From the NCBI GenBank assembly GCA_945897985.1, contig CAMDGN010000006.1:1-38279 (forward strand): a DNA stretch of 38,279 nt. Reading direction: 5' to 3'. A program made the translations under genes and the position numbers. Shown in pieces: positions 8,674 through 24,964 of the stretch (its first letter is position 1; every line of letters starts with the position of its first letter). The notes beneath the pieces are model-generated. The model did no database searches. It was given only the letters and a program-made list of their open reading frames with translations, and had not been told where the DNA came from. This stretch comes from a candidate division WWE3 bacterium (GTDB lineage: Bacteria; Patescibacteriota; WWE3; UBA101185; UBA10185).

Positions 8674-10634
8674 CCAGCTATATCGATGTTAGCTTTTTTG
8701 GCATTGGCTTGGATAAACTTCTTTCGAGGTAGAACTTCGTCACCCATTAGAACTGAGAAGACATTGTCAGCCCTGCTTGCGTCAGCGATTACAACTTGCT
8801 TTAATCTTCTGGTTTTTGGGTTCATAGTGGTCTCCCATAACTCATCGGCATTCATTTCCCCAAGTCCTTTAAACCTTTGAGTGATTATCTTTTTATCTGA
8901 GTTTTCTTTCATGAAGATATCCCTATCCGAGTCAGTGAAAAGATATTTTTTATTCTTTCCCCAAGTGGCTTTGTATAGAGGTGGGACAGCAACATAGACA
9001 TGCCCATTATCAAGCAAGGGCCTCATATGCCTAAAGAAGAAGGTTAGATAAAGAGTCATAATGTGAGACCCGTCGATATCGGCATCAGACATGATCACGA
9101 TTTTTCCATATCTTAATTTATCTGGGTTGTAATGATCTCCAATTCCAGCCCCGATGGCTACAATTAGCATTTTGAATTTTTCTGAAGAAACAACTTTATC
9201 AAGTCTCTCACCTTCAGTGTTATTAACCTTACCAAAAATTGGCAAGATGGCTTGGGTTTTTCTGTCTCTTCCCTGCTTTGCAGAACCGCCCGCAGAGTCT
9301 CCCTCAACAATAAATATTTCAGTTTTTTTGCTATCTTTTTCAGAACAGTCTGCAAGTTTTCCAGGTAGAACTCCCCCACCTTCAAGAGCTGTTTTTCTGA
9401 TTACAGTTTCTCTGGCAGCTTTAGCGGCCATTCTAGCTTTCATCGCTAGGATGTTTTTCTCAAGGATTGCTTTAGCTTCTTTTGGATTTTCTTCGAAGAA
9501 ATCATTGATTGCTGATTTTGTAATTTGCTCAACTAAAGGTCTAACAAACGAATTTCCAAGTTTATTTTTGGTTTGTCCTTCGAATTGAAGTTCTTCTGAT
9601 TGAAGTTTAACTGAGATAACTGCTGTTAATCCCTCGTTAATGTCATCAGGTGTTAGAGCTTCCGCTTCTTTTAAATAACCTTGCTTTTTAGCATAGTCAT
9701 TAATTGATCTAGTTAATGCGGTTTTGAAACCTGTTAAGTGAGATCCACCTTCAGCAGTTTTAATGTGGTTTGCGAAACTTAGAAAGTTATCGGTATAAGT
9801 ATCATTGTATTGGAATGCAGCTTCAACATAAAGTTCGTCTGTAGATTTCAAAATATAAAATGGTGTTTGATTGATTAGTTTTTTATTTCTATTTAAACTC
9901 TTTAAGAACGTTTTAACGCCTCCTTCGAAGTAGTAGGTATAGTATCTATCAGTCCTGTGATCAATAATTTCAAATTTAACTTTAGCTGTTAGATAGGCGT
10001 ATTCTCTAAGTTGACTTTCAAAATGTTCGTATTTGAAATCAGTTGTGTCGAAAATAGTTTTATCAGGTTTGAATTGAACAATTGTTCCTGAAGTGTAATC
10101 CCAATCGGAAGGTTTTAATGGGTTTTCAACTCCCTTAAGAAGAGTCTCCCCTTCTTTGTAAGGCCTAACTGGTCCTATGACATTTCCACCGTCCTTAAAT
10201 TCTTGTATTACAGTTTCTCCGTTTCTTCGGGAAACAACTCTACAGTATTCAGATAATGCATTAACAACAGAAGCACCTACTCCGTGAAGACCTGAGGAAA
10301 CTTTGTATCCCCCACCTCCAAATTTTCCTCCTCCGTGTAATACGGTGAAAGCAATTTCAAGTCCAGTTTTGTTGTATTTTTTATTTAAGTCAAATGGAAT
10401 TCCTCTTCCGTTATCATAAATTGCAACAGACCCATCTTTAAAGAAAACTAGTTTGATATGGTTTGCATATCCAGCCAAAGCTTCATCCATGGAATTATTG
10501 ACTATTTCTGTAATACAGTGGTGAAGACCTGTTTGACCAGTCGACCCAATGTACATTCCAGGTCGTTTTCGGACTGCTTCTAAACCTTCTAAAATTTGGA
10601 TTGATTCGGATGAATAATTATTATTGGAACTCAT
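8670..10634 (-). CDS. gyrB: DNA gyrase subunit B
   Basis: EAVRKRPGMYIGSTGQTGLHH, NSMDEALAGYA, SGLHGVGASVVNALS, IVEGDSAGGSAKQGRDRKTQAILP, QRFKGLGEMNADELWETTM; overlaps the transpeptidase start. Confidence 0.97.
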   Translation of the reverse strand: MSSNNNYSSESIQILEGLEAVRKRPGMYIGSTGQTGLHHCITEIVNNSMDEALAGYANHIKLVFFKDGSVAIYDNGRGIPFDLNKKYNKTGLEIAFTVLHGGGKFGGGGYKVSSGLHGVGASVVNALSEYCRVVSRRNGETVIQEFKDGGNVIGPVRPYKEGETLLKGVENPLKPSDWDYTSGTIVQFKPDKTIFDTTDFKYEHFESQLREYAYLTAKVKFEIIDHRTDRYYTYYFEGGVKTFLKSLNRNKKLINQTPFYILKSTDELYVEAAFQYNDTYTDNFLSFANHIKTAEGGSHLTGFKTALTRSINDYAKKQGYLKEAEALTPDDINEGLTAVISVKLQSEELQFEGQTKNKLGNSFVRPLVEQITKSAINDFFEENPKEAKAILEKNILAMKARMAAKAARETVIRKTALEGGGVLPGKLADCSEKDSKKTEIFIVEGDSAGGSAKQGRDRKTQAILPIFGKVNNTEGERLDKVVSSEKFKMLIVAIGAGIGDHYNPDKLRYGKIVIMSDADIDGSHIMTLYLTFFFRHMRPLLDNGHVYVAVPPLYKATWGKNKKYLFTDSDRDIFMKENSDKKIITQRFKGLGEMNADELWETTMNPKTRRLKQVVIADASRADNVFSVLMGDEVLPRKKFIQANAKKANIDIAG

Positions 10635-10645
10635 ATTACTTAGCC

Positions 10646-10651
10646 ATTATA
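10646..10651 (-). promoter_or_regulatory. -10 TATAAT upstream of gyrB (11 nt gap to ATG)
   Basis: Minus strand TATAATGGCTAAGTAATATG inside the 30-bp holB-like/gyrB gap. Confidence 0.5.
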
Positions 10652-10664
10652 CATTTTTCTAATT

Positions 10665-11291
10665 TTATTTGAAGTTGATAACTAGATTTTCTAAAGCCAA
10701 CCTCGTGTTTAGGTTGAATTTAGACAGGTTTTCGATGGTTGAGATTAGTAAGTTAAGGTTTTCTGATCCCATCTTATTTTCTGAATTTTTGAGTGTTTTG
10801 AGGATATTTGTGAGGTAATCCAATATCTCTTCCTTATCCTGTTTGGATAGGGTTTCCATATAATCAAATCTCTCAGCTAAAGTCATTTTTAAGAAATCTG
10901 ATTCCACAATGGTTTTTTCTTCTCCTTTTAATTTTATTTTGGCGCATCTTGATAGAATTGTAGGAAGAAAAGACTCAATAGAGTTTCCTTCAAGAAAAAT
11001 CTGAGCGTACTCTGGAGGTTCTTCTAAAATTTTAAGAAGTGAGTTTTGAGCTTCAGTTGTTAGAAGATTGGCTTCTTTAATTACAACAATTTTTATTCTT
11101 CCTAACGGTTTAATTTTAAGAAAATTTGAGATAGGCCTGACTTCCTCAATTCCGATACTTTTTTTAGTTTTAGTCCTCTCAATTATTCTAAGATCTGGAT
11201 TATGTTCCCATTTAAAATTAGCTAAGGATTTTTTAATTTCCTCTACCCTACTCTCGCTATTTGATCCATAAATTAATGTCGAAATACTCAT
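10665..11291 (-). CDS. DNA polymerase III delta'-like (HolB/clamp-loader) protein, short, degenerate P-loop
   Basis: LKIKPLGRIKIVVIKEANLLTTEAQNSLLKILEEPPEYAQIFLEGNSIESFLPTILSRCAKIKL. Confidence 0.85.
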   Translation of the reverse strand: MSISTLIYGSNSESRVEEIKKSLANFKWEHNPDLRIIERTKTKKSIGIEEVRPISNFLKIKPLGRIKIVVIKEANLLTTEAQNSLLKILEEPPEYAQIFLEGNSIESFLPTILSRCAKIKLKGEEKTIVESDFLKMTLAERFDYMETLSKQDKEEILDYLTNILKTLKNSENKMGSENLNLLISTIENLSKFNLNTRLALENLVINFK

Positions 11292-11307
11292 AAAAATTTT
11301 TATTAAA

Positions 11308-11316
11308 TGTTATTAT
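11308..11316 (+). promoter_or_regulatory. Extended -10 TGT-TATTAT, 7 nt before pilB ATG
   Basis: TGTTATTAT TTTATTA ATG. Confidence 0.5.
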
Positions 11317-11323
11317 TTTATTA

Positions 11324-13099
11324 ATGCCTGCAACTTTTAGTAATTATAAATCAATAGAAGAGATTCTTTTAGATTTAGGTAAAATCACACAACAACAACT
11401 AGAAGCAATTAGAATTACCAGTGTAAATACTGGTCAATCTACCAAAGATACTATTAGAGATGGCAATTACATCACAGCTGAAGATTATGCACTCGCCTAT
11501 TCTAAAGCATACAACGTTGAATACGTATCGTTAAAAGGAAAGAAAATTGACCCCGCGCTGTTTGACGTGCTCCCTCTAGATTATATTAAAAAATACGAAG
11601 CAGTTCCATTTAATAGAACATCTGAAGTTCTTCAAGTTGCGATGACTGATCCAGTTAATCTGGAAGTTATCGAGTTCATTGAAAGAAAAGCTGGATTAAA
11701 GGTCATCGCTTATGTAACAACCAAAGCAGACATCTCCGCTGTCTTAGAAGAAGGAAAGACTAAGACACTTTCGGAAGATGTAACTAAAGCTCTACAAGAG
11801 ATTTCGACAACTACGGAAGCTTTAAAAATTGACGGTAGTGGTACGTTAACCAAAGACGACGCAATCTTAAAAGATGCTCCTGTAGCAAGAATTGTTGGAA
11901 TGATCATTGAAACTGCTGTTAAACTCGGTGCTTCTGATATTCATTTAGAACCTGCTGAAGAAACAGTTAGACTAAGATATAGAATCGACGGGGTTTTAGA
12001 AGAAAGAAGAACCTTCCCCAAAGAAATGTCGGATACAATTGCCGCCAGAATCAAAGTTCTTTCGGGACTTAAAATTGATGAGAAAAGAATTCCTCAGGAC
12101 GGTAGATTCAAAGTTCAAGTTGGTGAAGCGTTTACCGACCTCAGAGTCTCTACGCTCCCGACAGTTTATGGCGAGAAAATTGTTATTAGGCTTCTTAAAG
12201 AAGAATCTACAGTTTACACTTTTCAAGAGCTTGGAATGAGGGGTTTAACAATTAGAAGATTTGAGGAAACATTACTCAGGCCAGTCGGAATGTTACTTGT
12301 AACTGGTCCAACAGGTTCAGGTAAAACAGTGACACTTGCCTCTGCTCTTCAAAAATTAAATACTTCTAAGGTTAATATTGTGACCATTGAGGATCCTGTA
12401 GAAATTAGAGTTAAAGGCGTAAATCAAGTTCAGGTTAATGTTAAAGCTGGGTTAACTTTTGCCTCTGCCTTAAGATCATTTCTTAGACAGGATCCAAACA
12501 TCGTCATGGTTGGAGAAATTAGAGATGAGGAAACAGCCGCTCTAGGTATTCAAGCTGCGCTAACAGGCCACATGGTTCTTTCCACTCTGCATACTAATTC
12601 ATCGGCCGGGGCTATACCTAGATTATTAGATATGAAAGTAGAAAATTACTTACTCTCCTCTACTCTAAATGGAATCTTGGCTCAAAGATTAATTAGAAAA
12701 CTTTGTTCTAACTGCAGAGAGGAATATGACGCTCCAGAAGATATAAAAACCATGATTAAAGAAGCTCTTAAAGAGATTCAAACTAGCCAAGTTATTGAGA
12801 GTAAGGACAAGGGTGTTTATGAAGCTGTACAACAAGTAGAAGCTGGAAATTTTAAATTATATCGACCTGTTGGTTGTGATAAATGTAACAACATTGGTTA
12901 CAAAGGTCGAGTTGGAATTTTTGAATTCCTACAAATCACTCCTGAAATTTCTAAAGCTACACTTGAGAAAAGATCTTCCCAAGAAATTGAAATTATTGCT
13001 AAAAATGAAGGAATGCTTACCTTACTACAAGATGGATTTTTGAAATGTATTGACGGTACCACTAACCTTTCTGAAGTATTAAGGGTCGCTTACGAGTAA
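11324..13099 (+). CDS. pilB: Type IV pilus assembly ATPase PilB (GspE family)
   Basis: DIHLEPAEETVRLRYRIDGVL, GPTGSGKTVTLASAL, QDPNIVMVGEIRDEETA, LSTLHTNSS, Zn-binding CSNC...CDKC. Confidence 0.96.
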   Translation: MPATFSNYKSIEEILLDLGKITQQQLEAIRITSVNTGQSTKDTIRDGNYITAEDYALAYSKAYNVEYVSLKGKKIDPALFDVLPLDYIKKYEAVPFNRTSEVLQVAMTDPVNLEVIEFIERKAGLKVIAYVTTKADISAVLEEGKTKTLSEDVTKALQEISTTTEALKIDGSGTLTKDDAILKDAPVARIVGMIIETAVKLGASDIHLEPAEETVRLRYRIDGVLEERRTFPKEMSDTIAARIKVLSGLKIDEKRIPQDGRFKVQVGEAFTDLRVSTLPTVYGEKIVIRLLKEESTVYTFQELGMRGLTIRRFEETLLRPVGMLLVTGPTGSGKTVTLASALQKLNTSKVNIVTIEDPVEIRVKGVNQVQVNVKAGLTFASALRSFLRQDPNIVMVGEIRDEETAALGIQAALTGHMVLSTLHTNSSAGAIPRLLDMKVENYLLSSTLNGILAQRLIRKLCSNCREEYDAPEDIKTMIKEALKEIQTSQVIESKDKGVYEAVQQVEAGNFKLYRPVGCDKCNNIGYKGRVGIFEFLQITPEISKATLEKRSSQEIEIIAKNEGMLTLLQDGFLKCIDGTTNLSEVLRVAYE

Positions 13100-13104
13100 C
13101 TTGG

Positions 13105-13133
13105 TTGCAAATCGTAAATAATTTAACTATATT
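13105..13133 (+). promoter_or_regulatory. Putative leaderless pilT promoter: TTGCAA-17-TATATT, 6 nt before ATG
   Basis: TTGCAA ATCGTAAATAATTTAAC TATATT TAATGT ATG. Confidence 0.6.
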
Positions 13134-13139
13134 TAATGT

Positions 13140-14204
13140 ATGCCTTTTAATTTAAAAGAAATAATTGACGCAGTTGTGAATGATGGAGCTTCGGACTTAC
13201 ATTTTTCTGTAGGTCTTCCTCCCCTATTTAGAGTTAAGAAGCAGTTAGTAACTAAAGAAGGTTACACAGCTCTTACAACTGATGACATAAATTATTTTCT
13301 GTCTCAAATTCTTTCTGAAGAGCAAAGAAAACTTTTTGAAATAAACAAGGAATTATTCATGTCAGTTAATTTTGGAAATAACGTTAGGTTCAGGGTTACG
13401 GTGTTTAACACCAAAGGCGGGTATCCGGCTGTTGCGTTACGAACTATTCCCTTCCATAGTCCTGATTTAGACAAATTAAATCTTCCTCCAATTGTTAAAA
13501 AAGCTGCAGATTTCAAGCAAGGCTTGATTTTAGTAACTGGTCCAACAGGTCAAGGAAAATCAACAACAATTGCAGGAATTATTGAAAAAATAAACGAAGT
13601 AAGAAACGAGCACATCGTTACTATAGAAGACCCAATCGAATTCTTATTCGAATCAAAAAAAAGTTTCATTCAACAAATGGAAGTTTCGATAGACACCTTA
13701 TCCTGGAATTCGTCATTAAAATCAATTTCTAGAGTTGATCCGGATGTTGTCATGGTTGGTGAAATTAATGATACTGAATCATTACTAACCGCCTTAAACT
13801 TAGCTGAAACTGGTCACTTAGTTCTTTCAACCTTGCATACCAACTCAGCCTCACAGACCGTTGATAGAGTAATATCTTCATTCCCTGAGGCCATGCAGTC
13901 TCAAGTTCGAAACCAACTTTCCCTAGTTTTAGAAATGGTTATTTCTCAAAGACTGGTTGAAACAATTGACGGGGATATTCTTCCGGCTTGTGAAGTTTTA
14001 ATTTCAAATTCAGCCACTAGAAATTTAATTCGAGAAAATAAAATTTATGCAATTGATAATATTATTGCAACATCGGCTAATCTTGGAATGATCACACTAG
14101 ACTCTTCTCTAGCTGAACTTGTTAATTCTGGAAAAGTAAGCTTAAACAATGCAATTAGGTATTCTCTATCACCTGAGAACTTAACACGAATGGTCAAAAA
14201 ATAA
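13140..14204 (+). CDS. pilT: PilT-family twitching/retraction ATPase (divergent arginine motifs)
   Basis: GPTGQGKSTTIAGII, VTIEDPIEFLFE, DPDVVMVGEINDTESLLTALNLAETGHLVLSTLHTNSA. Confidence 0.9.
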   Translation: MPFNLKEIIDAVVNDGASDLHFSVGLPPLFRVKKQLVTKEGYTALTTDDINYFLSQILSEEQRKLFEINKELFMSVNFGNNVRFRVTVFNTKGGYPAVALRTIPFHSPDLDKLNLPPIVKKAADFKQGLILVTGPTGQGKSTTIAGIIEKINEVRNEHIVTIEDPIEFLFESKKSFIQQMEVSIDTLSWNSSLKSISRVDPDVVMVGEINDTESLLTALNLAETGHLVLSTLHTNSASQTVDRVISSFPEAMQSQVRNQLSLVLEMVISQRLVETIDGDILPACEVLISNSATRNLIRENKIYAIDNIIATSANLGMITLDSSLAELVNSGKVSLNNAIRYSLSPENLTRMVKK

Positions 14205-15412
14205 TGGCAATCTTTACTTTCTCGGCAAAAGATAATTTAGGCGCATCTAAATTTGGAACAGTTGAAGCCAATGATAGAGACTCAGCTTTACAACTTTTAA
14301 AAAACCAAAATTTGGTCGTGATTTCAATTCAAGAAAAGCAAGCCTCTTTTGCGGATAAACTTTTTAAATTTGGAGGTGTTTCTGAGGATGAGGTTACAAC
14401 TTTCACTCGTGAATTCTCCGTTATGATTTCTTCGGGTCTTCCAATTAACAAAGCTTTAAATATCTGCGTTAATCAGTTTGAAGGTAAGAACTTTAAAGAG
14501 GTTTTACTTGAAATCTCCAAAGACATTGATTCCGGTACTTCTCTTTCTGGTGCGTTTGCCAGATTTCCAGATGTATTTGACACATCCTATATTTCATTAG
14601 TTAGAGCTGGAGAATCATCTGGAAAATTAGAAGTTGTTTTAAAAAGATTAGCTGAATCTTACGAGGCAATCAGAGACTTAAAATCCAGGCTTAAAGCTGC
14701 TCTTATCTACCCAGCCATTGTACTTGTAGTTATGTTTTTAGTAATTCTAGTTTTGGTTGTGTATGTGATTCCAAAACTTACTGAGATTTTTGTATCAATA
14801 AATCAACCCCTTCCTTGGCATACTCAATTTTTAGTAAATGTTTCTTCATTTGTAACATCCTTTTGGTATTTATTGTTTGCAATTGTACTCGCTTTATTTT
14901 TTGGAATTAGATACTACCTCTCAACAATCGAGGGTCAAATGATGCTTTCAACTTTAATTTATAAAATTCCTGTAATTGGAAAAGTTGTTAAACAAACTGA
15001 ACTTGCAAATTATATGAGAACTTTAGCTCTTCTTGTTTCTGCAGGTGTTCAAATTACTGAAGCACTAATTATTGTTTCTAAAGTTTCAAATAATCCTCAA
15101 TTATCAAAAGCTTCAATCGAAGCATCTAAGTTTGTTGAAAAAGGAAATGCTCTTTCTGATTACTTAAGATCAAATACTTTTTTTGATCCAATCATTTCTT
15201 CGATGGCAAAAATTGGAGAAGAAACTGGTCAGATGGATGAACTTCTCTATAAAGTTGCAGATAATTACTCAAACGAATCCTCTTATGCAATTAAGGGGTT
15301 GTCAGCTTCCCTAGAACCTATTATATTAGTTATTCTAGGTATTTCAGTAGGTAGTATAGTTTTATCTGTGATCACTCCAATCTATGGTTTGATTGGTAAT
15401 TTATCACAGTAA
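14204..15412 (+). CDS. pilC: Type IV pilus inner-membrane platform protein PilC (GspF family)
   Basis: FTREFSVMISSGLPINKALNI, SLVRAGESSGKLEVVLKRLAE, three TM segments, IGEETGQMDELLYKVADNY. Confidence 0.95.
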   Translation: MAIFTFSAKDNLGASKFGTVEANDRDSALQLLKNQNLVVISIQEKQASFADKLFKFGGVSEDEVTTFTREFSVMISSGLPINKALNICVNQFEGKNFKEVLLEISKDIDSGTSLSGAFARFPDVFDTSYISLVRAGESSGKLEVVLKRLAESYEAIRDLKSRLKAALIYPAIVLVVMFLVILVLVVYVIPKLTEIFVSINQPLPWHTQFLVNVSSFVTSFWYLLFAIVLALFFGIRYYLSTIEGQMMLSTLIYKIPVIGKVVKQTELANYMRTLALLVSAGVQITEALIIVSKVSNNPQLSKASIEASKFVEKGNALSDYLRSNTFFDPIISSMAKIGEETGQMDELLYKVADNYSNESSYAIKGLSASLEPIILVILGISVGSIVLSVITPIYGLIGNLSQ

Positions 15413-15429
15413 GAAAGGAAATAAAAAAA

Positions 15430-15975
15430 ATGAAAAATAATAACAAAGGTTTTACATTGATCGAGTTAGTTATCGTAATTGCAATTATTGCTGTTCTTGG
15501 TACAGCAGTATTCTTAAACATTAGGCCAGGAGAAATTTTAGCTAATTCTAGGAATGCAACTAGAAAATCAGACGTACAAAATTTAGTTAACGCAATTAAC
15601 AAAGGTCTTGTTAGTGGGGATATAGCTCTAATCTCATCAAACGGTTGGAAATCTTCTGCTGATGCAAGTGCAAGTTTTGTAGTAACTGGAACAGGTTTTG
15701 TACCTTTTAATCAGGTTATTGCAAATGGAACAGCTAAATTAGATTTAAACAAGCTTCCATCCGATCCACTAAATGGAAACGCAATCGCAAATATTGGCGA
15801 TGTGGTTCAAAAAGTAGCTGGGACAGCTACCTATAAAGTTGCTTATTGCTCAGATGGTAAGGATTTTGAAGTTGAAGTTTACTTAGAAAATGATACTAAA
15901 AATGAAATGATTAATGATGGTGGTAATAATCCTACTGCTTACGAAGTTGGTTCTAATGTATTAGTTTGCCAATAA
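15430..15975 (+). CDS. Type IV prepilin (candidate major pilin)
   Basis: GFTLIELVIVIAIIAVLGTAVF class III signal; AGGAAA SD upstream. Confidence 0.92.
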   Translation: MKNNNKGFTLIELVIVIAIIAVLGTAVFLNIRPGEILANSRNATRKSDVQNLVNAINKGLVSGDIALISSNGWKSSADASASFVVTGTGFVPFNQVIANGTAKLDLNKLPSDPLNGNAIANIGDVVQKVAGTATYKVAYCSDGKDFEVEVYLENDTKNEMINDGGNNPTAYEVGSNVLVCQ

Positions 15976-15983
15976 ACTATCTC

Positions 15984-16724
15984 ATGGAATTTTTGAACTA
16001 TATATTAGTTGGAGGAACCGGTCTTTTGACCGGTTCTTTTCTAAATGTTGTCTCTGATAGATTGTTTCACAAAAAAGATTTTGTTACTGGCCGGTCAAAG
16101 TGTGATCATTGTCACAAAACTTTAAGTGCCTGGGATTTAATACCGGTTCTTTCTTTTATCCTTTTAGGGGGCAAATGTCGCTACTGTCATAAAAAGCTTG
16201 ATATTCTCTACCCTATTTCAGAAATATTAACTTCCGCAGTATTTATTTTTTTATACTATTTAATTTTAATTAAAAACTTAGAAGTCTCCTTTATCCCTTA
16301 TTATTTAATTGCTTTTTCTCTTTTTATTATTGTTTTTCTATCCGACTATAAATATTATGAAGTTCCTTTTGGGATTGTTGTTTCAGGAACTGTTTTCTCT
16401 ACTCTTTATAGATATTTAGTAATTGGAAATTTAAATTACGATAATTTATTTATTGAACTAGCTTCTACTCTTGGTATTGGATTGTTCTTTTTCTTGATAA
16501 TTTATCTTTCAAAAGGAGGTATGGGTGGTGGAGACTTAAAACTTTCCTTCTTTATTTCCCTATTTCTAGGTTTTCCAAAAAATGTTTTTGCAATTTATTA
16601 CGCTTTTGTGATTGGTGGGATTTTTGCGATTATTCTTTTGATTCTTGGTAAAAAAGGTTACAAAGCAAAAATCCCTTTTGGCCCTTTTATGATAATTGGT
16701 GTTTTAGTTAGTTTGATTCTTTAA
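15984..16724 (+). CDS. pilD: Prepilin peptidase PilD
   Basis: GSFLNVVSDRL, CDHCHKTLSAWDLIPVLSFILLGGKCRYCHKKL, GMGGGDLKLSFF; ATG at 15984 preferred over the TTG at 15966 in the track. Confidence 0.93.
   Translation: MEFLNYILVGGTGLLTGSFLNVVSDRLFHKKDFVTGRSKCDHCHKTLSAWDLIPVLSFILLGGKCRYCHKKLDILYPISEILTSAVFIFLYYLILIKNLEVSFIPYYLIAFSLFIIVFLSDYKYYEVPFGIVVSGTVFSTLYRYLVIGNLNYDNLFIELASTLGIGLFFFLIIYLSKGGMGGGDLKLSFFISLFLGFPKNVFAIYYAFVIGGIFAIILLILGKKGYKAKIPFGPFMIIGVLVSLIL
16015..16040 (+). terminator. Terminator-like hairpin inside the 5' end of pilD
   Basis: GAACCGGTC TTTT GACCGGTTC followed by TTTTCTAAA: 9-bp perfect stem, T4 loop, short T-run. Confidence 0.5.
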
Positions 16725-17424
16725 TTTCAAAACCTGGAAGAATAAAGCTTTCAAAGTAGTCTTGATTGTTTAGGTCAGAAAACTCTCCCTCAACGTAGAT
16801 CATTATATTGTTTTTTGTTAGAGTCCAAATATAGCTGTTCTTATTTGTGCTATTACTAATAAATTTATCAATCGAATTGCCAGAGGAAGTTTTTGTTACC
16901 AAGTATTTGTATACCTCATCTGTAAGGACAATATTGTCAATTACTGTTTCGGGTTCTCTTGTAAGGAAATTGTTTAGAAGTTTTTCTTTTCCAATTTTAG
17001 TAGCTGTAATATAACTATTACTAAATCCACCCTCAGCAATATCAATCTCTCCTTTTTCGTTTGAGATAAGTTGAAATTTAAAAACTTTAGCTTTGTTTGA
17101 CTCATCAAGTGCTATTTCCCCTACCCTACCGTTTTCCTTATACGACCATTTTTCAGGAATATATAGGTCGACATTAACGAGAAAATTATTTTTGATTGTT
17201 TTAACAGGTTGAGTACCTTCGCTTAATATAATTGGGCTAGCATTTTGCGCATCTTCCTCAGATTTAAATAGGTTTGGTTTATTAATCTCAATTTCTGTTA
17301 CTTCAGTTTGTTTCTCTTCTTTAGGAGTGTTTGTAAAACTAAAATTTCCCCAGTAAACTAAACCTAAAATTGCAGAAATTGTGATTATCGAAACAAGAAC
17401 TGATATTATTAAATACTTTTTCAT
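16708..17424 (-). CDS. Hypothetical membrane-anchored extracytoplasmic protein
   Basis: N-terminal TM (MKKYLIISVLVSIITISAILGLVYW) then soluble domain; overlaps the pilD 3' end tail-to-tail by 17 bp. Confidence 0.7.
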   Translation of the reverse strand: MKKYLIISVLVSIITISAILGLVYWGNFSFTNTPKEEKQTEVTEIEINKPNLFKSEEDAQNASPIILSEGTQPVKTIKNNFLVNVDLYIPEKWSYKENGRVGEIALDESNKAKVFKFQLISNEKGEIDIAEGGFSNSYITATKIGKEKLLNNFLTREPETVIDNIVLTDEVYKYLVTKTSSGNSIDKFISNSTNKNSYIWTLTKNNIMIYVEGEFSDLNNQDYFESFILPGFEIKESN

Positions 17425-17457: not shown

Positions 17458-17463
17458 TACACT
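17458..17463 (+). promoter_or_regulatory. -10 TACACT, 7 nt before ATG of the 17471 gene
   Basis: TACACT AAAACTA ATG. Confidence 0.45.
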
Positions 17464-17470
17464 AAAACTA

Positions 17471-20002
17471 ATGTCACTGCTCAAAAGATTTATAATTGTT
17501 AATATTATTTTAATTTCAGGTCTTTTATTTTATTTAAGCTATCTGTCTTTGTATCCACAAGGTGCTACACAATCTCCAGAGAAAAATGAAGTTTTAGCAG
17601 CAACTACACAAGAATTCAATTCTTTTGCTCTAGCTACAATTAATCAATACCCTGTAATTTCATATCCAGATGGAAGATCCGTTCCTTTTCAGGACAGGTT
17701 TGCTATTATCCGAAAATATTCCTCTCCATCTAAATTTACAAACCATCTTTGTAATAGTGTAGATGAAAGAAGTGATGCTTGGAAAAATGGTACAAGTTGT
17801 ACTGGGTATACTAATAATTATAACCCAACATTTATTAAATTAAATTTTGACGACAGTGAGAAGTTGATGTTGTATGCTTATTATGGTCTTTATGCGATTG
17901 ATTCTGGAGAAAAAAATATTGTTGAATGGCAATCGGCTCACATTGATAGAATACAAAACGCAACAGCTGTATACCCTTGTGGCTGGACTTATGATCCTTC
18001 TTCAGTTATACCGGTAAAGTCTGGATCAAATTTTTATTTATTCTCAAAATTTAGTGGACATCAAAGGACAAATGATTCAAGGTGTTTACAGTTTTATGAT
18101 GAATATACAAACAGAGCAAGTTATTCTCAAGCCAATGGTAGGTTGTATCTAGGATACGAAATTAACTCTGATGGAAAGTTAAATACTAAGTCTTACACAC
18201 GAACCACTGTTGCCCCATATACAAATTTCGCAATTGGAGGTCCTTTTGGACCTGGTCCTAAAAATGCCACTTTATATGCAACTTCACCGACTGCAGATAT
18301 TTATGGTTGTAAAGCTTATGACTCAAATAAAAGATGTATTTCAGTTCAAGGTGTAGCTCTACAAACTGTGACTACAGTTCCTACAAAATCTGTTCAAGGA
18401 ACTTGTAAAACCTGGGGTACGCGATCACCAGAATATGTAAAATGTACCTATTCCTCTCAGTGGGTAATTAATAACCTTCAATCAGTATTTGTAGGTTGCA
18501 ACCCTTCTGCAGGTCAATATCCTAAATGTCCTAATACAGTTGTACAGCGTTGTGACGTTACTGGGGCTTATATACTTTGTGAGAACCAAACTATGCCATG
18601 TTCATACACTCAAGAGCCAACTGGGGCATATTCCCAACAATGCGCAGCGTATAACTACACAATAGTACCCGGAAGTTTTAAGACTGCTGTTAACTCCCCT
18701 ATTTTCTCAAATTTCAAAGATTTTAACCCTAATCTAAAAACTTGGAATACAAATTCAACAGCAACTCCAGCCGATTACAATCCATACAAAGATGAAACAG
18801 CAACTAATTCAACAGCCAATGCTCTAAACTTCACCAAAGATTTAAATTCCACTGTTTTTACTTCTAATAACTATATGTTTAAGGTTACTGTGCCTTCTGT
18901 AGGAAAGTTGAATGTTAAGAGATACCCTCTTAACACAACAACTTATAATCCCGGTTCGTCTTCTTATATTCAAACCTCAACTTATAGTACCAATTTAACT
19001 TTAGGAAGTAGTTTAAATACTAAATATTCCCTACACTATTATCAAAATGATATTTACTTAATGGCTTCAGGTTCTACAACTTATAATTTTTGGAAACTTA
19101 AAAATTTAAATACTACTGGCGCAAATATTGAAGTTTCTGACTTATCGGATGAAATATCCTCAAAGATAACTACAGGTACTCCAAAAGCTTTTGGTATTGT
19201 TTCTGGTAAGGTTTATGTAATTGTTGGAAATCGGGTTTATTACGCGACAATCAGTGGTGGTGGAGGTACAGTCGTTCCAGACTCAAACTATGGAAACTTT
19301 GAAGTAAATGGATCTGTTTATACCAGCAAAGATTTAACAGAAAAATTTATTGTTACTAATCCTTCCAAAAAGCTTGAAGGAAACTATGTTACTAGCGCTT
19401 CAACTGTAACTGGTACTAACATCAAGAGTGTGAAAGGAGCAACCTTTAGTTTTGATTACCCAACCACCCTGCCAAAAACCCTTTTTAACTTCACTGTTTA
19501 TTCAAACTCTTTTAATAAATTTAATTTATTGGTTGGATCTTCGACAGCCCAGGACCCAAACCCCTTAGCCTCTCCAAATTATGTTTCTATCTCCCCTGCT
19601 TCATCTAACAAATTTGAAATTATTTACATTTCACAAAATAGAGGGGTGAAGATCGATTTAAAGAATACTAATTTAAACAATGTTAACTTCAAACTTGATA
19701 AATATATTTTTGTAAATTTAGACAAATCAAACAATTCAAGAATTAACTTTACTCTGGATTGTTCTAATGCTACATATTCTGCATATTCAGTTATATGTAC
19801 AAAAGGCAATAAATTCTATATGAAAGGTGCTCTACTTGGTCAATTTACAATAGTAGGCTCTATTTTAGACACAATGACCACAACTAGATTTATAAATGTA
19901 TCTGAGAATCCTGACTTACTTTTAAATATTATCCCAGAGCTTAGATCTAAAAAATATCCAATGGTTACAACTTCTAAAGTTAACTTGAAATATAGTCAGT
20001 AG
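17471..20002 (+). CDS. Large secreted/anchored Cys-rich protein in the T4P locus; candidate pilus-associated adhesin (PilY1-like position, no recognised homology)
   Basis: 843 aa, N-terminal hydrophobic segment, 16 Cys (14 in the N-terminal half), Asn/Thr/Ser-rich, immediately upstream of PilX-like and prepilin genes. Confidence 0.75.
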   Translation: MSLLKRFIIVNIILISGLLFYLSYLSLYPQGATQSPEKNEVLAATTQEFNSFALATINQYPVISYPDGRSVPFQDRFAIIRKYSSPSKFTNHLCNSVDERSDAWKNGTSCTGYTNNYNPTFIKLNFDDSEKLMLYAYYGLYAIDSGEKNIVEWQSAHIDRIQNATAVYPCGWTYDPSSVIPVKSGSNFYLFSKFSGHQRTNDSRCLQFYDEYTNRASYSQANGRLYLGYEINSDGKLNTKSYTRTTVAPYTNFAIGGPFGPGPKNATLYATSPTADIYGCKAYDSNKRCISVQGVALQTVTTVPTKSVQGTCKTWGTRSPEYVKCTYSSQWVINNLQSVFVGCNPSAGQYPKCPNTVVQRCDVTGAYILCENQTMPCSYTQEPTGAYSQQCAAYNYTIVPGSFKTAVNSPIFSNFKDFNPNLKTWNTNSTATPADYNPYKDETATNSTANALNFTKDLNSTVFTSNNYMFKVTVPSVGKLNVKRYPLNTTTYNPGSSSYIQTSTYSTNLTLGSSLNTKYSLHYYQNDIYLMASGSTTYNFWKLKNLNTTGANIEVSDLSDEISSKITTGTPKAFGIVSGKVYVIVGNRVYYATISGGGGTVVPDSNYGNFEVNGSVYTSKDLTEKFIVTNPSKKLEGNYVTSASTVTGTNIKSVKGATFSFDYPTTLPKTLFNFTVYSNSFNKFNLLVGSSTAQDPNPLASPNYVSISPASSNKFEIIYISQNRGVKIDLKNTNLNNVNFKLDKYIFVNLDKSNNSRINFTLDCSNATYSAYSVICTKGNKFYMKGALLGQFTIVGSILDTMTTTRFINVSENPDLLLNIIPELRSKKYPMVTTSKVNLKYSQ

Positions 20003-20028: not shown

Positions 20029-20034
20029 TATAGT
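20029..20034 (+). promoter_or_regulatory. -10 TATAGT, 7 nt before ATG of the PilX-like gene
   Basis: TATAGT AAAAGTA ATG. Confidence 0.45.
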
Positions 20035-20041
20035 AAAAGTA

Positions 20042-20893
20042 ATGCCTAAACAAAATAAAATAAACAATCAAGGTCAGGTTCTTCTAATTGTTGTAATTTC
20101 TCTTGCTGTTTTATTAGGGGTGGGTCTTAGCATCTCCTCTGGTACTTTATCTTCTATTACTAGAACTTCTAGAACCGATTCATTACAGAAAGTTACTGCA
20201 GCGGCCGAAGGTGGGCTTGAATCCTACCTACTCAAAACTGATGATCAATTAAAGCAAGTTCTTGCAAGCAGCAGCTCCACTGCAACCCAAAGCTATAATG
20301 AGTCAGATACAAAAGCCATCATCACTGTTTCTAAAGTTACCGCTGGAGATACTGGAATTACTTTTGATACATTAGATCCAGGTGAAGTTGCTACTTTTTA
20401 TTTTGCAGACGATCCATCTGCTGTAACTAAAGCTGGAAAAACAGCCTGTATTAAGATTTCAACCGACACCCCAAATCCAGAATATATTCTTAATGTGATA
20501 GTTAAAAATCCCAATACTCTTGCGACCTTTAAATCTGTTTCAGATATAGATTACGATGCAACAACTACTAATAACTTTTTAATGGAGAAATACATTTATT
20601 CAGGAACTGGTTTTGTTAGAAGCGTAAGCCCTACTTCTTGTACTGGTGGATACCAATTCACTGACGCGGCTCTACTAAGAATTCATCCACTAACTAAATC
20701 TCTATCCAACTTAGTTATCAGCGTTGTTACCTCCTCAGATACCGGTTTAAAAAATATTACCCAAGGTTACAGAATTGTTTCCAAAGGAGAATTTATTAGC
20801 GCTGGGGACGCTACAGTTCGAACAATCGATGCTGTTAAGTATTTAGATTCCCCAAGCAACATGTTTGATTATGCTGCTTTTGTGGATTATTAA
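20042..20893 (+). CDS. PilX N-terminal-like minor pilin
   Basis: NNQGQVLLIVVISLAVLLGVGLSISSGTLSSITRTSRTDSLQKVTAAAEGGLESYL. Confidence 0.75.
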   Translation: MPKQNKINNQGQVLLIVVISLAVLLGVGLSISSGTLSSITRTSRTDSLQKVTAAAEGGLESYLLKTDDQLKQVLASSSSTATQSYNESDTKAIITVSKVTAGDTGITFDTLDPGEVATFYFADDPSAVTKAGKTACIKISTDTPNPEYILNVIVKNPNTLATFKSVSDIDYDATTTNNFLMEKYIYSGTGFVRSVSPTSCTGGYQFTDAALLRIHPLTKSLSNLVISVVTSSDTGLKNITQGYRIVSKGEFISAGDATVRTIDAVKYLDSPSNMFDYAAFVDY

Positions 20894-20894
20894 A

Positions 20895-21347
20895 ATGAAA
20901 AAAAATCACGGTTTTACACTTATCGAACTTGTTATTGTAATTGCTATTATTGCGGTACTTGCTACAACTATAGTTTCAATTATTAATCCAGTTGAATACC
21001 AAAAAGTTGCAAGAGACACTGTTCGACTTTCAAGCTTAAATTCGATTTCTCAAGCGCTTGAACTCTATTTTGCAGAATATAAATCATACCCTGATGCTTT
21101 GGCTAACGGAACAATAGACTTGAGTGCCTATAATTCAAGAATTTCTTGGGACGATCCTTCAAATTGTAAATATAAGTATGAGAAAGTTAGTGATAGTGCT
21201 TATAATTTATACGCTACTAAGGAGTCTAAATCCTTTAGTGCTCCAGCCGGACAGTTTTTAGTTAAAATTGTTAATGATCCAGCGGTTGTGATGAATTGTA
21301 ATGTACAAAATTTAAAAGAAGTTATTAGGATCTCAAATCAGCAGTAA
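20895..21347 (+). CDS. Type IV prepilin (start moved to ATG 20895)
   Basis: MKKNHGFTLIELVIVIAIIAVLATTIVSIINPVEYQKVARDTVRLSSLNSISQALELYF. Confidence 0.9.
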   Translation: MKKNHGFTLIELVIVIAIIAVLATTIVSIINPVEYQKVARDTVRLSSLNSISQALELYFAEYKSYPDALANGTIDLSAYNSRISWDDPSNCKYKYEKVSDSAYNLYATKESKSFSAPAGQFLVKIVNDPAVVMNCNVQNLKEVIRISNQQ

Positions 21348-21790
21348 TGTTAAATAAAGGTTTCACTTTAGTTGAACTTGTTATTTCAATCATGATTATT
21401 GCAATCATTACAACTATTGCAGTTCCTGGTGTTATATCTTACCAAAATAAACAACTTGAAGATCAGTTTGTAAATCAAATTATCAACCAACTTAGAAGTT
21501 TGGAAAATATTTCTTTAACTAAAGACATCAGTACCAAAATATCTTTTGCGTCTGGAGCTATCAATTTTTGTGAAGTTGAAAGTACCAATTGTAAGGTGTT
21601 AGCTGTTCCCTCCTCTTTGACCGACACAGTTTCTTTAACAAACGGTAGTTTTTACTTTGACAGGTATGCAAATTTATTAGATTCAGGTAAATCAGCTGTA
21701 ACTGTCGATACATATTCTATTACAACTAAGTCGTATAAAATTATTATTAATAAATATGGAGATATTTCAAAAGAATTTATCCAAAATTAA
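21347..21790 (+). CDS. Minor prepilin (GspH/FimT-like)
   Basis: MLNKGFTLVELVISIMIIAIITTIAVPGVISY. Confidence 0.85.
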   Translation: MLNKGFTLVELVISIMIIAIITTIAVPGVISYQNKQLEDQFVNQIINQLRSLENISLTKDISTKISFASGAINFCEVESTNCKVLAVPSSLTDTVSLTNGSFYFDRYANLLDSGKSAVTVDTYSITTKSYKIIINKYGDISKEFIQN

Positions 21791-22241
21791 AAACTCTAAC
21801 GAAGGAATTGGTTTAATTGAGACAATTCTAGCAGTGATGTTTTCAATTTTTCTAATTGTAGCTCTAATTACTTTAACTAATTTTAATATTAGAAACTCAA
21901 CTTTAGCTGATGAAAACCGAAAAGCTATTAACTCCGCCAACAGCTTAGTTGAATCACTGAGATCTCTTAAAGATAGTGAAGCTATCGGTTTTACAACTTT
22001 TAGAACTGAAGTTACTTCTGAATGTGTAGCTACGGATTGTATCGTGACAGGAAATACTGCTAATAATATAGTTGGACCAATAACCTTTGATCAGACTACT
22101 GAGTATCCTATAAGTTACTTCAGGGCAGTCCAAGTTTCAAATGACGAGATTAAAATAAATATAAATACTATATGGAAAATTGGTTCTAAGACCTTCTCCT
22201 CCCCTCTTTCAACCACATTCTCTAACTGGAGGGCAAAATAA
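21756..22241 (+). CDS. Minor prepilin (PilV/GspI-like)
   Basis: NEGIGLIETILAVMFSIFLIVALITLTNFNIRNS; 35-bp overlap with the upstream gene. Confidence 0.75.
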   Translation: MEIFQKNLSKIKNSNEGIGLIETILAVMFSIFLIVALITLTNFNIRNSTLADENRKAINSANSLVESLRSLKDSEAIGFTTFRTEVTSECVATDCIVTGNTANNIVGPITFDQTTEYPISYFRAVQVSNDEIKININTIWKIGSKTFSSPLSTTFSNWRAK

Positions 22242-22242
22242 A

Positions 22243-22710
22243 ATGAAAAGAAATTCTGGATTCACCTTAGTTGAATTGTTAGTTACCCTTGGTTTAATTA
22301 GCATTATTTTAGTTGTTTCATCTGAATTTTTAATTAATCTGGTTAATACTTCCGTTAAAATTCAGTCCAAAAATGAGGTTGAGCAAAATTATAATTTTAT
22401 AGTTACTAAAATGACCAAAATTATTCAAGATTCCAATTCAGTTGTTCTTGATGGTTCCGATTTAGTTGCCAGCAAAGATGGTGTAGACTACAGATTTGCT
22501 TTGGTTGGTAATTCTTTAACTTTGAACGGTTTGGAATTAAGCTCCTTAAGTGTCTTACAAATTACTAATACTTCAGTTTTTTCAATCATCTCTAACAATC
22601 CGCAACAAGTAAAAATAAATTTTAGGATAGAAAAAGACGCTGGAACCAAGTTTGAATCTTCTCAAGAAGTTAAAAGAACAATTACTTTAAGAAGGTCGTA
22701 TAAAAACTAA
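22243..22710 (+). CDS. Minor prepilin (PilW/GspJ-like; start moved to ATG 22243)
   Basis: MKRNSGFTLVELLVTLGLISIILVVSSEFLINLV. Confidence 0.85.
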   Translation: MKRNSGFTLVELLVTLGLISIILVVSSEFLINLVNTSVKIQSKNEVEQNYNFIVTKMTKIIQDSNSVVLDGSDLVASKDGVDYRFALVGNSLTLNGLELSSLSVLQITNTSVFSIISNNPQQVKINFRIEKDAGTKFESSQEVKRTITLRRSYKN

Positions 22711-22731: not shown

Positions 22732-23757
22732 ATGTCACACATTGGTTTAGATTTAGGTTCTCATAGCATTAAATGCATTGAGTTAGATTTAATCAATAAA
22801 AACCCAACTTTAGTCAATTTTTCTGTTCTTGAATCTGATAAATTAAAACTAGACTTTAATAAAGAAGACTCAGTTAATATGTATGTTTCAAAAATTAAAG
22901 AATTTTTTTCTGAAACAAACTTTAAATCCCGAGAAGTAAATTTAAGCCTTCCTGACACTGACGTTTTTGTTAGCGTTCAGGTGTTGCCTAAAATGAATCC
23001 TACCGAACTTAGAAACTACATCTCTTTGCAAGCTAATGATATTTTTCCTGAAAATATTTCTAATCTAACTTATGACTTTAAAATTTTAGGTGAGAAAGAA
23101 GGCCAGAAATTAGAGGTACTCGTAGTTGGCGCTAAAAGGGATAAAGTTGAGAAGTACATAAACATGGTTAAAAGATGTGATTTAACTCCAAAACTAATTG
23201 AAGCAAGAAGCATATCTCTATCAAGGGTTGTAGCTCCACTTGATAATCCAAACCCAGTTATGGTTTTGGACTTTGGCTATAACAGCTCTACTCTTCAGAT
23301 ATCCTACAAACAAACACCAAGATTTATTAAATCTATCGCAATTGGTTCTAATTCGTTCAATAGAGCTTTGGTTCAAAACCTGAACCTATCCCTAATTCAA
23401 GCTGATGAATTTAAAAAGTCATACGGAATGGATCCCCATGTTGCTGAAGGTCGTGTTTATACATATCTAAAGCCTTTAGTTGATTCATATATTCTTGATA
23501 TCAAAAGGTCAATTGTATATTTCAATGAAAAAAATAAAGGTATGGATATTTCAGAAATCTATTTATCGGGCGGATTGGCTAATATGCCGGGACTTAGAGA
23601 ATATTTGGAAAAAAACTTAAATTACAAAGTTGAAGTTTTTGATATTTTTTCTAGAATTAGAGTATCATCAGAGTTGAAAAAGTATGAAAGTGAGTTGTTC
23701 CACATTTCCCCTCTTTTAACAACTGCTGTAGGGACAGCTGGAATTGATATGTTATGA
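22732..23757 (+). CDS. pilM: Type IV pilus assembly protein PilM
   Basis: IGLDLGSHSIKCIEL, VMVLDFGYNSSTLQI, IYLSGGLANMPGLREYLEKNL. Confidence 0.93.
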   Translation: MSHIGLDLGSHSIKCIELDLINKNPTLVNFSVLESDKLKLDFNKEDSVNMYVSKIKEFFSETNFKSREVNLSLPDTDVFVSVQVLPKMNPTELRNYISLQANDIFPENISNLTYDFKILGEKEGQKLEVLVVGAKRDKVEKYINMVKRCDLTPKLIEARSISLSRVVAPLDNPNPVMVLDFGYNSSTLQISYKQTPRFIKSIAIGSNSFNRALVQNLNLSLIQADEFKKSYGMDPHVAEGRVYTYLKPLVDSYILDIKRSIVYFNEKNKGMDISEIYLSGGLANMPGLREYLEKNLNYKVEVFDIFSRIRVSSELKKYESELFHISPLLTTAVGTAGIDML

Positions 23758-24317
23758 ATGAATTAAATTTAATTACACCTGAAGAAAAATTTGAACAAAA
23801 CACCTCTAATGTTTTTAAAGTTTTAAATATTCTATTTATCTCCCTTTTATTGGTAACTATTGGTTTTTCAATCTATGCTTATAAGAATAATCAAGTTTTG
23901 GTATCCCAAAAGAATGCCTTAGTGTCACAAATAGATTCTTTAAAGTCTGATATATCCGGGTATACCACTGAAGAGCTCCTACTTAGAAATATTGATATTA
24001 AATATACAACTTATTCTGCAACTAGAAAAAATACAGTAAATTACGCCGAGGTTATTAAAGAAATTTATGCTAGAACCGAAGGGACATCCATTACTGTAAA
24101 AGACATTATATTTACTCAAAACAAAAATGAAGTTTCAGTAAAAGTTATAACTGAGGCTGATCAATTCACAAAATTTGTAAGCAATATGAAGTCTAATGAC
24201 TTTAAAGATTCAAAATATCCTAAACTTTTCAGTTCTTCTGAAAAGAATGAAGAAGTTAACCAAGCAACAAAAGAGTATATAGTTTATGTAAATTTTAATC
24301 CGGCAGAAATAAAATGA
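23754..24317 (+). CDS. PilN-like T4P assembly protein
   Basis: Position after pilM; N-terminal NLITPEEKFE then single TM and coiled coil. Confidence 0.75.
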   Translation: MNELNLITPEEKFEQNTSNVFKVLNILFISLLLVTIGFSIYAYKNNQVLVSQKNALVSQIDSLKSDISGYTTEELLLRNIDIKYTTYSATRKNTVNYAEVIKEIYARTEGTSITVKDIIFTQNKNEVSVKVITEADQFTKFVSNMKSNDFKDSKYPKLFSSSEKNEEVNQATKEYIVYVNFNPAEIK

Positions 24318-24964
24318 ATAACTTACCAAAAGTAGACTTCTCTAAACTATTAAATGATTTGATTATCCCTATTATTTCTGTGACTATCACACTGATTCTC
24401 TACTTTATTTTTATTGGGCCCTATCTTACTTTAAATTCGACTTTTAAAAAGGATAAGATTGATTTTGAAGCTATGATTACAGGCATGGAAGCTAAAAAAA
24501 AGATTCTATCTGACACACGATCTAACCTAGAAACTTTAAAGAAATATGAATCTAGACTTACCTCTCTTGTTCCAACCGACGCTAATGCTTCTGACTTGGT
24601 TGGTGTTTTAGATACTCTTTCTCGAGTAAATAACTTTTCGGTTGTTGAAGAGAATAAAAATGTTGTTTCGCCAGAAAACGCTAAAAAGAAGATTAGTGAG
24701 GTTAGATTTAACGGAAAAACTGCCGGCATGCTCTCCGCAGTAAATTTTATTTCTGAAGTAACCTACTTCCCTACTAAAGTATTCAATATAACAAAACTTG
24801 AGATAACCAATAATTATGATGATAAATTTACTAGAGTTTCATTTAATGCAATTTCAAACTATAACCCTGATAAAGCTGTAATAAATATTGAAGCTAGCGT
24901 GACTGACTATTTAAATAACAAATCTTTTGTAGATGAAATGGAAGCGTTGATTTCCAAAAATTAA
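24314..24964 (+). CDS. PilO-like T4P assembly protein
   Basis: Position after PilN-like gene, N-terminal TM, coiled coil, ferredoxin-like C-terminal region. Confidence 0.7.
   Translation: MNNLPKVDFSKLLNDLIIPIISVTITLILYFIFIGPYLTLNSTFKKDKIDFEAMITGMEAKKKILSDTRSNLETLKKYESRLTSLVPTDANASDLVGVLDTLSRVNNFSVVEENKNVVSPENAKKKISEVRFNGKTAGMLSAVNFISEVTYFPTKVFNITKLEITNNYDDKFTRVSFNAISNYNPDKAVINIEASVTDYLNNKSFVDEMEALISKN

Follow-up and report, generated by a model that had tools for sequence, protein, structure and literature searches.

A cysteine-rich protein paired with a Glu5-less PilX-like prepilin in a Katanobacteria type IV pilus cluster: a candidate tip adhesin

How the ultra-small Patescibacteria choose a host and attach to it is largely open, and the 38,279-nucleotide stretch of DNA analyzed here (the window) raises the question of whether one large protein encoded among its type IV pilus genes takes part in that contact. 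Sequence comparison places the window in the WWE3/Katanobacteria family (CPR/Patescibacteria), as a divergent representative; its PilM is about 28 to 35% identical to PilM proteins of genomes from the same family, which a scan with those proteins identified as candidate division WWE3. A sequence-only reading had singled out a cysteine-rich open reading frame (ORF) at positions 17471 to 20002 of the forward strand, here called W, as a candidate pilus tip adhesin. The ORF proved to be real, with an ATG start and 843 amino acids, and every motif quoted from it was present, at residues 168 to 391.

W and its pilus gene neighborhood

The pilus neighborhood described for W was confirmed. Genes for PilB, PilT, PilC, a pilin, and PilD (11324 to 16724) precede it on the same forward strand, and a PilX-like prepilin, four minor prepilin-like ORFs, PilM, PilN, and PilO follow on that strand. 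Only 39 nucleotides separate W from the gene for the PilX/GspK-like prepilin (20042 to 20893, 283 amino acids), the sole type-1 PilX copy in the window genome. Its mature N terminus reads QVLLI and lacks Glu5, and in the relatives the same kind of prepilin is the partner of a cysteine-rich protein. The minor prepilin-like ORFs span 20865 to 22710 (20865 to 21347, 21347 to 21790, 21756 to 22241, and 22180 to 22710), the third being assigned solely by sequence similarity to relatives. The TTG starts listed at 20865 and 22180 are probably too far upstream, as ATG codons near 20895 and 22243 yield normal prepilin leaders. PilM, assigned by TIGR01175, and PilN and PilO, assigned by position, lie at 22732 to 24964. 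A divergently oriented gene on the reverse strand (16708 to 17424) shares a short intergenic region with W; its product of 238 amino acids is free of cysteine and has a hydrophobic segment near the N terminus.

Both W and the PilX-like gene are preceded on the forward strand by a −10-like box 13 nucleotides ahead of the start codon, TACACT (17458 to 17463) and TATAGT (20029 to 20034), respectively, the former fitting a leaderless-type promoter. The pattern TANNNT occurs 12 to 14 nucleotides ahead of the start codon in 17 of the 36 window genes, whereas each of 16 other offset bins has it in 1 to 8 genes. Shine-Dalgarno sequences are present in few of the 36. Leaderless-type promoters thus appear to be common in the window genome.

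The two halves of W differ in composition, as the sequence-only reading had stated. Fourteen of the 16 cysteines lie between residues 94 and 391 (17750 to 18643), the remaining two being residues 764 and 776, which gives a cysteine density of 3.3% in the N part and 0.5% in the C part. Among the 36 ORFs of the window, W has the most cysteines (16) and the highest cysteine fraction (1.90%); the runner-up in fraction reaches 1.85% with just 6 cysteines. The C-terminal half (residues 422 to 843, 18734 to 19999) is rich in Asn, Thr, and Ser, which make up 35% of its residues versus 26% in the first half. The GC and GC3 values of W are those of the neighboring genes.

That W is secreted, as had been claimed, is supported in part. 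A hydrophobic helix at residues 3 to 25 (17477 to 17545) would serve as a Sec signal or signal-anchor and is predicted with confidence, but no canonical cleavage site follows it. The closest candidate made of small residues, LAA at residues 42 to 44, lies about 15 residues past the helix, so that the helix might equally remain uncleaved as a membrane anchor; in many relatives, the signal region ends in YA or YAA. W lacks the class III signal (GFxxxE type) of type IV prepilins, with no match to N_methyl or prepilin models. Structure prediction had been suggested as a check, and the AlphaFold model, which was made from the single sequence, is confident in the N-terminal helix alone and otherwise uninformative (pLDDT, 32.7), giving no usable fold. 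Three-stranded meanders at about residues 460 to 593 of that model gave a hint of a propeller, which at this pLDDT was not taken as evidence. In searches of W and its halves with hmmscan, no adhesive module was recognized, and PF05567 was missing at thresholds up to an E value of 10; the sequence-only reading had recognized no familiar PilY1 beta-propeller motif in W.

A search for VKOR and DsbA genes had also been proposed, and the outcome was divided. The window genome, which is 92% complete, encodes two DsbA-like proteins with CxxC motifs (CPYC and CPFC), but VKOR was not found in it; 16 of 41 relatives have VKOR. Judging from this gene content, oxidative folding of W is plausible.

The slot beside PilX in relatives

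In sequence, W is an orphan. Pattern scanning and tblastn found no relatives in a collection of 84,980 species, and there were no matches in collections of viral contigs, plasmids, and genome contigs or in PDB, Pfam, NCBIfam, and PHROGs. A six-frame search of 142 relatives returned a single 88-residue match (E value, 0.008), which contained internal stops and was judged to be noise, and no homolog was found in a phylum-wide sample of 380 genomes that partly overlaps the 142; in total, over 400 genomes of the same phylum were searched. No second copy was found in W's own genome, nor was there a conserved ortholog away from type IV pilus genes, the situation that the sequence-only reading had considered incompatible with its proposal. 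The neighbors of W, unlike W itself, keep normal similarity to relatives.

The position of W is more informative than its sequence. In the relatives, the slot immediately ahead of the type-1 PilX-like prepilin gene encodes a large secreted protein, 553 to 1368 amino acids long with 12 to 80 cysteines in the complete ones, the exception being a protein of 333 amino acids with 2 cysteines in genome G016. Most of these proteins have about 3 to 12% cysteine in the N part and 0 to 3% in the C part. W likewise lies directly upstream of a type-1 PilX-like prepilin and has the cysteine-rich N part and cysteine-poor C part of the relatives' PilX partners. As in the window, PilX has no Glu5 in any of the relatives read. 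In one locus (L070, within 9307 to 11865), two stretches of the cysteine-rich protein of genome G012 translate to X, reflecting masked or unresolved bases.

The relatives' slot proteins have in common a C-terminal domain of about 280 amino acids, here termed CT. It is present in 26 of the 26 other family genomes and in 68 of 143 sampled genomes, and in the same search it was not detected in the window's own genome. Iterated profiles gathered 75 CT ORFs in the fetched loci, some of which overlap. A CT-domain protein or CT fragment was found directly upstream of all 29 type-1 PilX genes examined, 25 of them by an adjacency rule (gaps of −58 to +105 nucleotides), 2 with slightly larger overlaps (L072 and L079), and 2 cut by contig ends. 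The head-PilX pair is detached from the main cluster in L088 to L092 and duplicated in L063, L068, and L076, and this relocation and duplication as a unit suggests that the two genes form a cognate cassette that can be exchanged. Microgenomates retain the PilX-CT pair as well, which means that synteny can find such heads where sequence search fails. Separately, cysteine-poor CT proteins of about 620 to 660 amino acids adjoin PilM in further genomes, both within the class and outside it (for example, L121, 2732 to 4660; L130, 7617 to 9575; L094, 2520 to 4394; and L095, 6359 to 8260), and a similar second CT protein occurs elsewhere in many family genomes.

An AlphaFold model of CT made from a 35-sequence alignment (pLDDT, 84; pTM, 0.87) is read as a predicted beta-helix followed by a C-terminal helix. 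A fold search against the PDB gave no significant match, the top one being the ice-binding beta-helix 6eio (E value, 0.085). Three of 35 CT members match Pfam DUF7305 (PF23981), with a best E value of 2.4e-6, a sequence relationship that would be distant at best. The N-terminal parts of the relatives' proteins are modular and carry CBM60, TSP_1 (TSP1), PKD, cadherin-like, Ig-like, fn3, GBS_Bsp-like, PA14, and F5/8C domains.

Comparison of evolutionary rates with pilus genes, another check proposed in advance, came out in favor of the adhesin reading. In congeneric pairs in which PilB and PilM are 95 to 96% identical, the slot protein is only 47 to 54% identical, with 36 to 48% in the N part and 54 to 63% in CT; PilX, PilV, and PilW in the same pairs are 58 to 77% identical. 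As measured in the relatives, the slot protein is therefore, by a wide margin, the fastest evolving of the proteins compared in the cluster.

A diverged head or a replacement

Does W carry a CT domain that has changed beyond recognition? By eye, residues 600 to 843 looked collinear with CT (GSVYTS, VYSNSFNKFNLL, FEIIYIS, GALLG, and NPDLLLNIIPEL). Formal tests gave this no support, and CT homology is for that reason not claimed for W, although its C-terminal half occupies the position of CT. The controlled tests leave W as either an exceptionally diverged member or a replacement, both of which are sub-cases of the tip-head reading developed below.

Divergence would mean that W keeps the CT fold, with a C-terminal beta-helix docking on PilX, beneath an eroded sequence. 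The position, partner, length, and cysteine layout of W match those of the relatives, and MAFFT places residues 600 to 843 along the CT blocks in order. Over the last 95 columns, an end-anchored score of the W tail against CT was equaled by 7 of 250 shuffles, a borderline result, and by 5 of 350 unrelated tails. Yet profile search, iterated profiles, and HHalign found no CT in W, a motif-chain score of the tail was no better than that of shuffles, and the full-length score was equaled by 15 of 300 shuffles, with other windows of W scoring as well. Moreover, Microgenomates with a similarly distant PilM still show a detectable CT. We consider divergence a serious possibility that falls somewhat short of even odds.

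Alternatively, the lineage may have lost its CT protein and recruited another, nonhomologous secreted beta-rich protein into the slot. The window genome is the sole family member without CT, W is an orphan beside neighbors of ordinary similarity, and ComEC as well as VKOR went undetected in this genome, which makes the lineage look remodeled. The missing ComEC, VKOR, and CT proteins could, however, reflect either additional reduction in this lineage or incompleteness of the 92% complete assembly (G000). Against replacement stand the exact retention of the slot and cysteine layout and a base composition in W without sign of transfer, and we regard it as rather doubtful. A bolder form would hold that the conserved tip socket of Katanobacteria pili, the Glu5-less PilX, takes exchangeable, fast-evolving adhesin heads and that here an unrelated cysteine-rich protein of new fold has taken over from the usual beta-helix head and would decide the cells to which the bacterium attaches; in that full form, the idea is speculative and, in our view, unlikely.

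A candidate tip head and its known counterparts

The slot that W occupies is that of the relatives' fast-changing, sticky surface protein, paired with a pilin predicted to cap the pilus, and W is thus probably the component with which the pilus contacts other cells. We put the chance that it is a tip adhesin or priming subunit, PilY1-like in working but not PilY1 by any test made, at about two in three. The adhesin reading fared well for the relatives, in which the protein in the same place is adhesin-like, cysteine-rich, paired with a Glu5-less PilX, the fastest evolving, and equipped with carbohydrate-binding and cell-adhesion modules; W itself is a putative adhesin. Counting against a tip head are the lack in W of CT, which the 26 other family genomes have, of any recognized module, and of a canonical cleavage site.

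As a tip head, W would be a non-pilin exported by Sec and then oxidatively folded, and it would sit on the adjacently encoded Glu5-less PilX-like prepilin. This prepilin and the other minor prepilins would start the pilus and would therefore end up at its tip. GspK/PilX-type pilins have been placed at the tip, since docking onto an existing filament is not expected of them (PMC5207764). The cysteine-rich N-terminal half of W would be exposed, fast changing, and in contact with another cell or surface, and the C-terminal half, which is the CT domain in relatives, would hold the head on PilX. Extension of the pilus would be powered by PilB and retraction by PilT. By analogy, we infer the tip location, the docking by the C-terminal half, and the binding of a ligand by W.

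W could instead act solely in assembly, priming, or stopping retraction of the pilus and bind nothing outside the cell. PilY1 primes pili in Myxococcus xanthus (PMC7541494), and a Glu5-less PilX as partner is what a priming complex would call for. Such a factor would be expected to be conserved like PilB and PilC, yet no protein compared changes faster than that of the slot, which in relatives also carries modules for binding carbohydrates and cells; this makes a purely assembly-related role distinctly unlikely. It is quite improbable that W has nothing to do with the pilus and is a secreted or surface protein encoded in the cluster by chance, as its want of a recognized domain or homolog might suggest, since a comparable protein fills the slot throughout the family. 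Least probable of all is a competence pilus with W as its DNA or polymer receptor: two minor prepilins show below-cutoff similarity, one to the ComGD model and the other to ComGF, and ComEC occurs in 22 of 25 relatives, but it was not found in this 92% complete genome, while all 17 other high-quality genomes of that search have it, which makes a DNA uptake role less likely.

The family-level pattern, in which a conserved Glu5-less PilX serves as the proposed socket for a variable head of two parts, is a more valuable result than W itself, and no description of it was found in the limited collection of literature searched. It directs the question of host choice to one slot beside the Glu5-less PilX, which holds the most divergent, adhesin-like surface protein in the Katanobacteria genomes examined, and host recognition becomes a testable two-gene question.

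The closest functional parallel for the tip-head reading is PilY1 (PF05567) with PilX of M. xanthus. There, as here, a large exported non-pilin is encoded among minor prepilin genes, including a Glu5-less PilX, and a variable N-terminal part accompanies a C-terminal part proposed to dock (PMC7541494). The M. xanthus PilX lacks Glu5, has been placed uppermost in the priming complex, and stabilizes PilY1, whose conserved C-terminal domain was modeled onto the minor pilins with the variable N-terminal domain outward (PMC7541494). Unlike PilY1, W has many cysteines and its gene lies upstream of pilX; the conserved C-terminal domain of its relatives is a predicted beta-helix and not a propeller. 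PF05567 was found in none of 42 genomes of the group, in a weak search in which control genomes also gave no match.

The CT-domain proteins of Katanobacteria and Microgenomates, near DUF7305 (PF23981), share with W the slot, the PilX partner, and the cysteine layout and differ from it in having a detectable CT. Tapirins of Caldicellulosiruptor are adhesins with a beta-helix domain, and their genes belong to a type IV pilus locus. CT gave weak, nonsignificant fold matches to tapirins, and the window PilX weakly matches the tapirin N terminus (E value, 0.0016). The tapirin model NF051896 (NCBIfam) had no match on W, and a link through PilX fails for the family, as that model matches 1 of 21 PilX-like proteins and 0 of 35 CT domains. 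PilX1 and PilX2 of Saccharibacteria (TM7x) are likewise subunits of a patescibacterial pilus that bear additional beta-rich domains. PilX2 carries a propeller and is a putative adhesin, and its deletion lowers host binding by about half (PMC12206443). The extra domain of the TM7x proteins is described as part of a minor pilin, whereas here the head and the prepilin are encoded by two genes.
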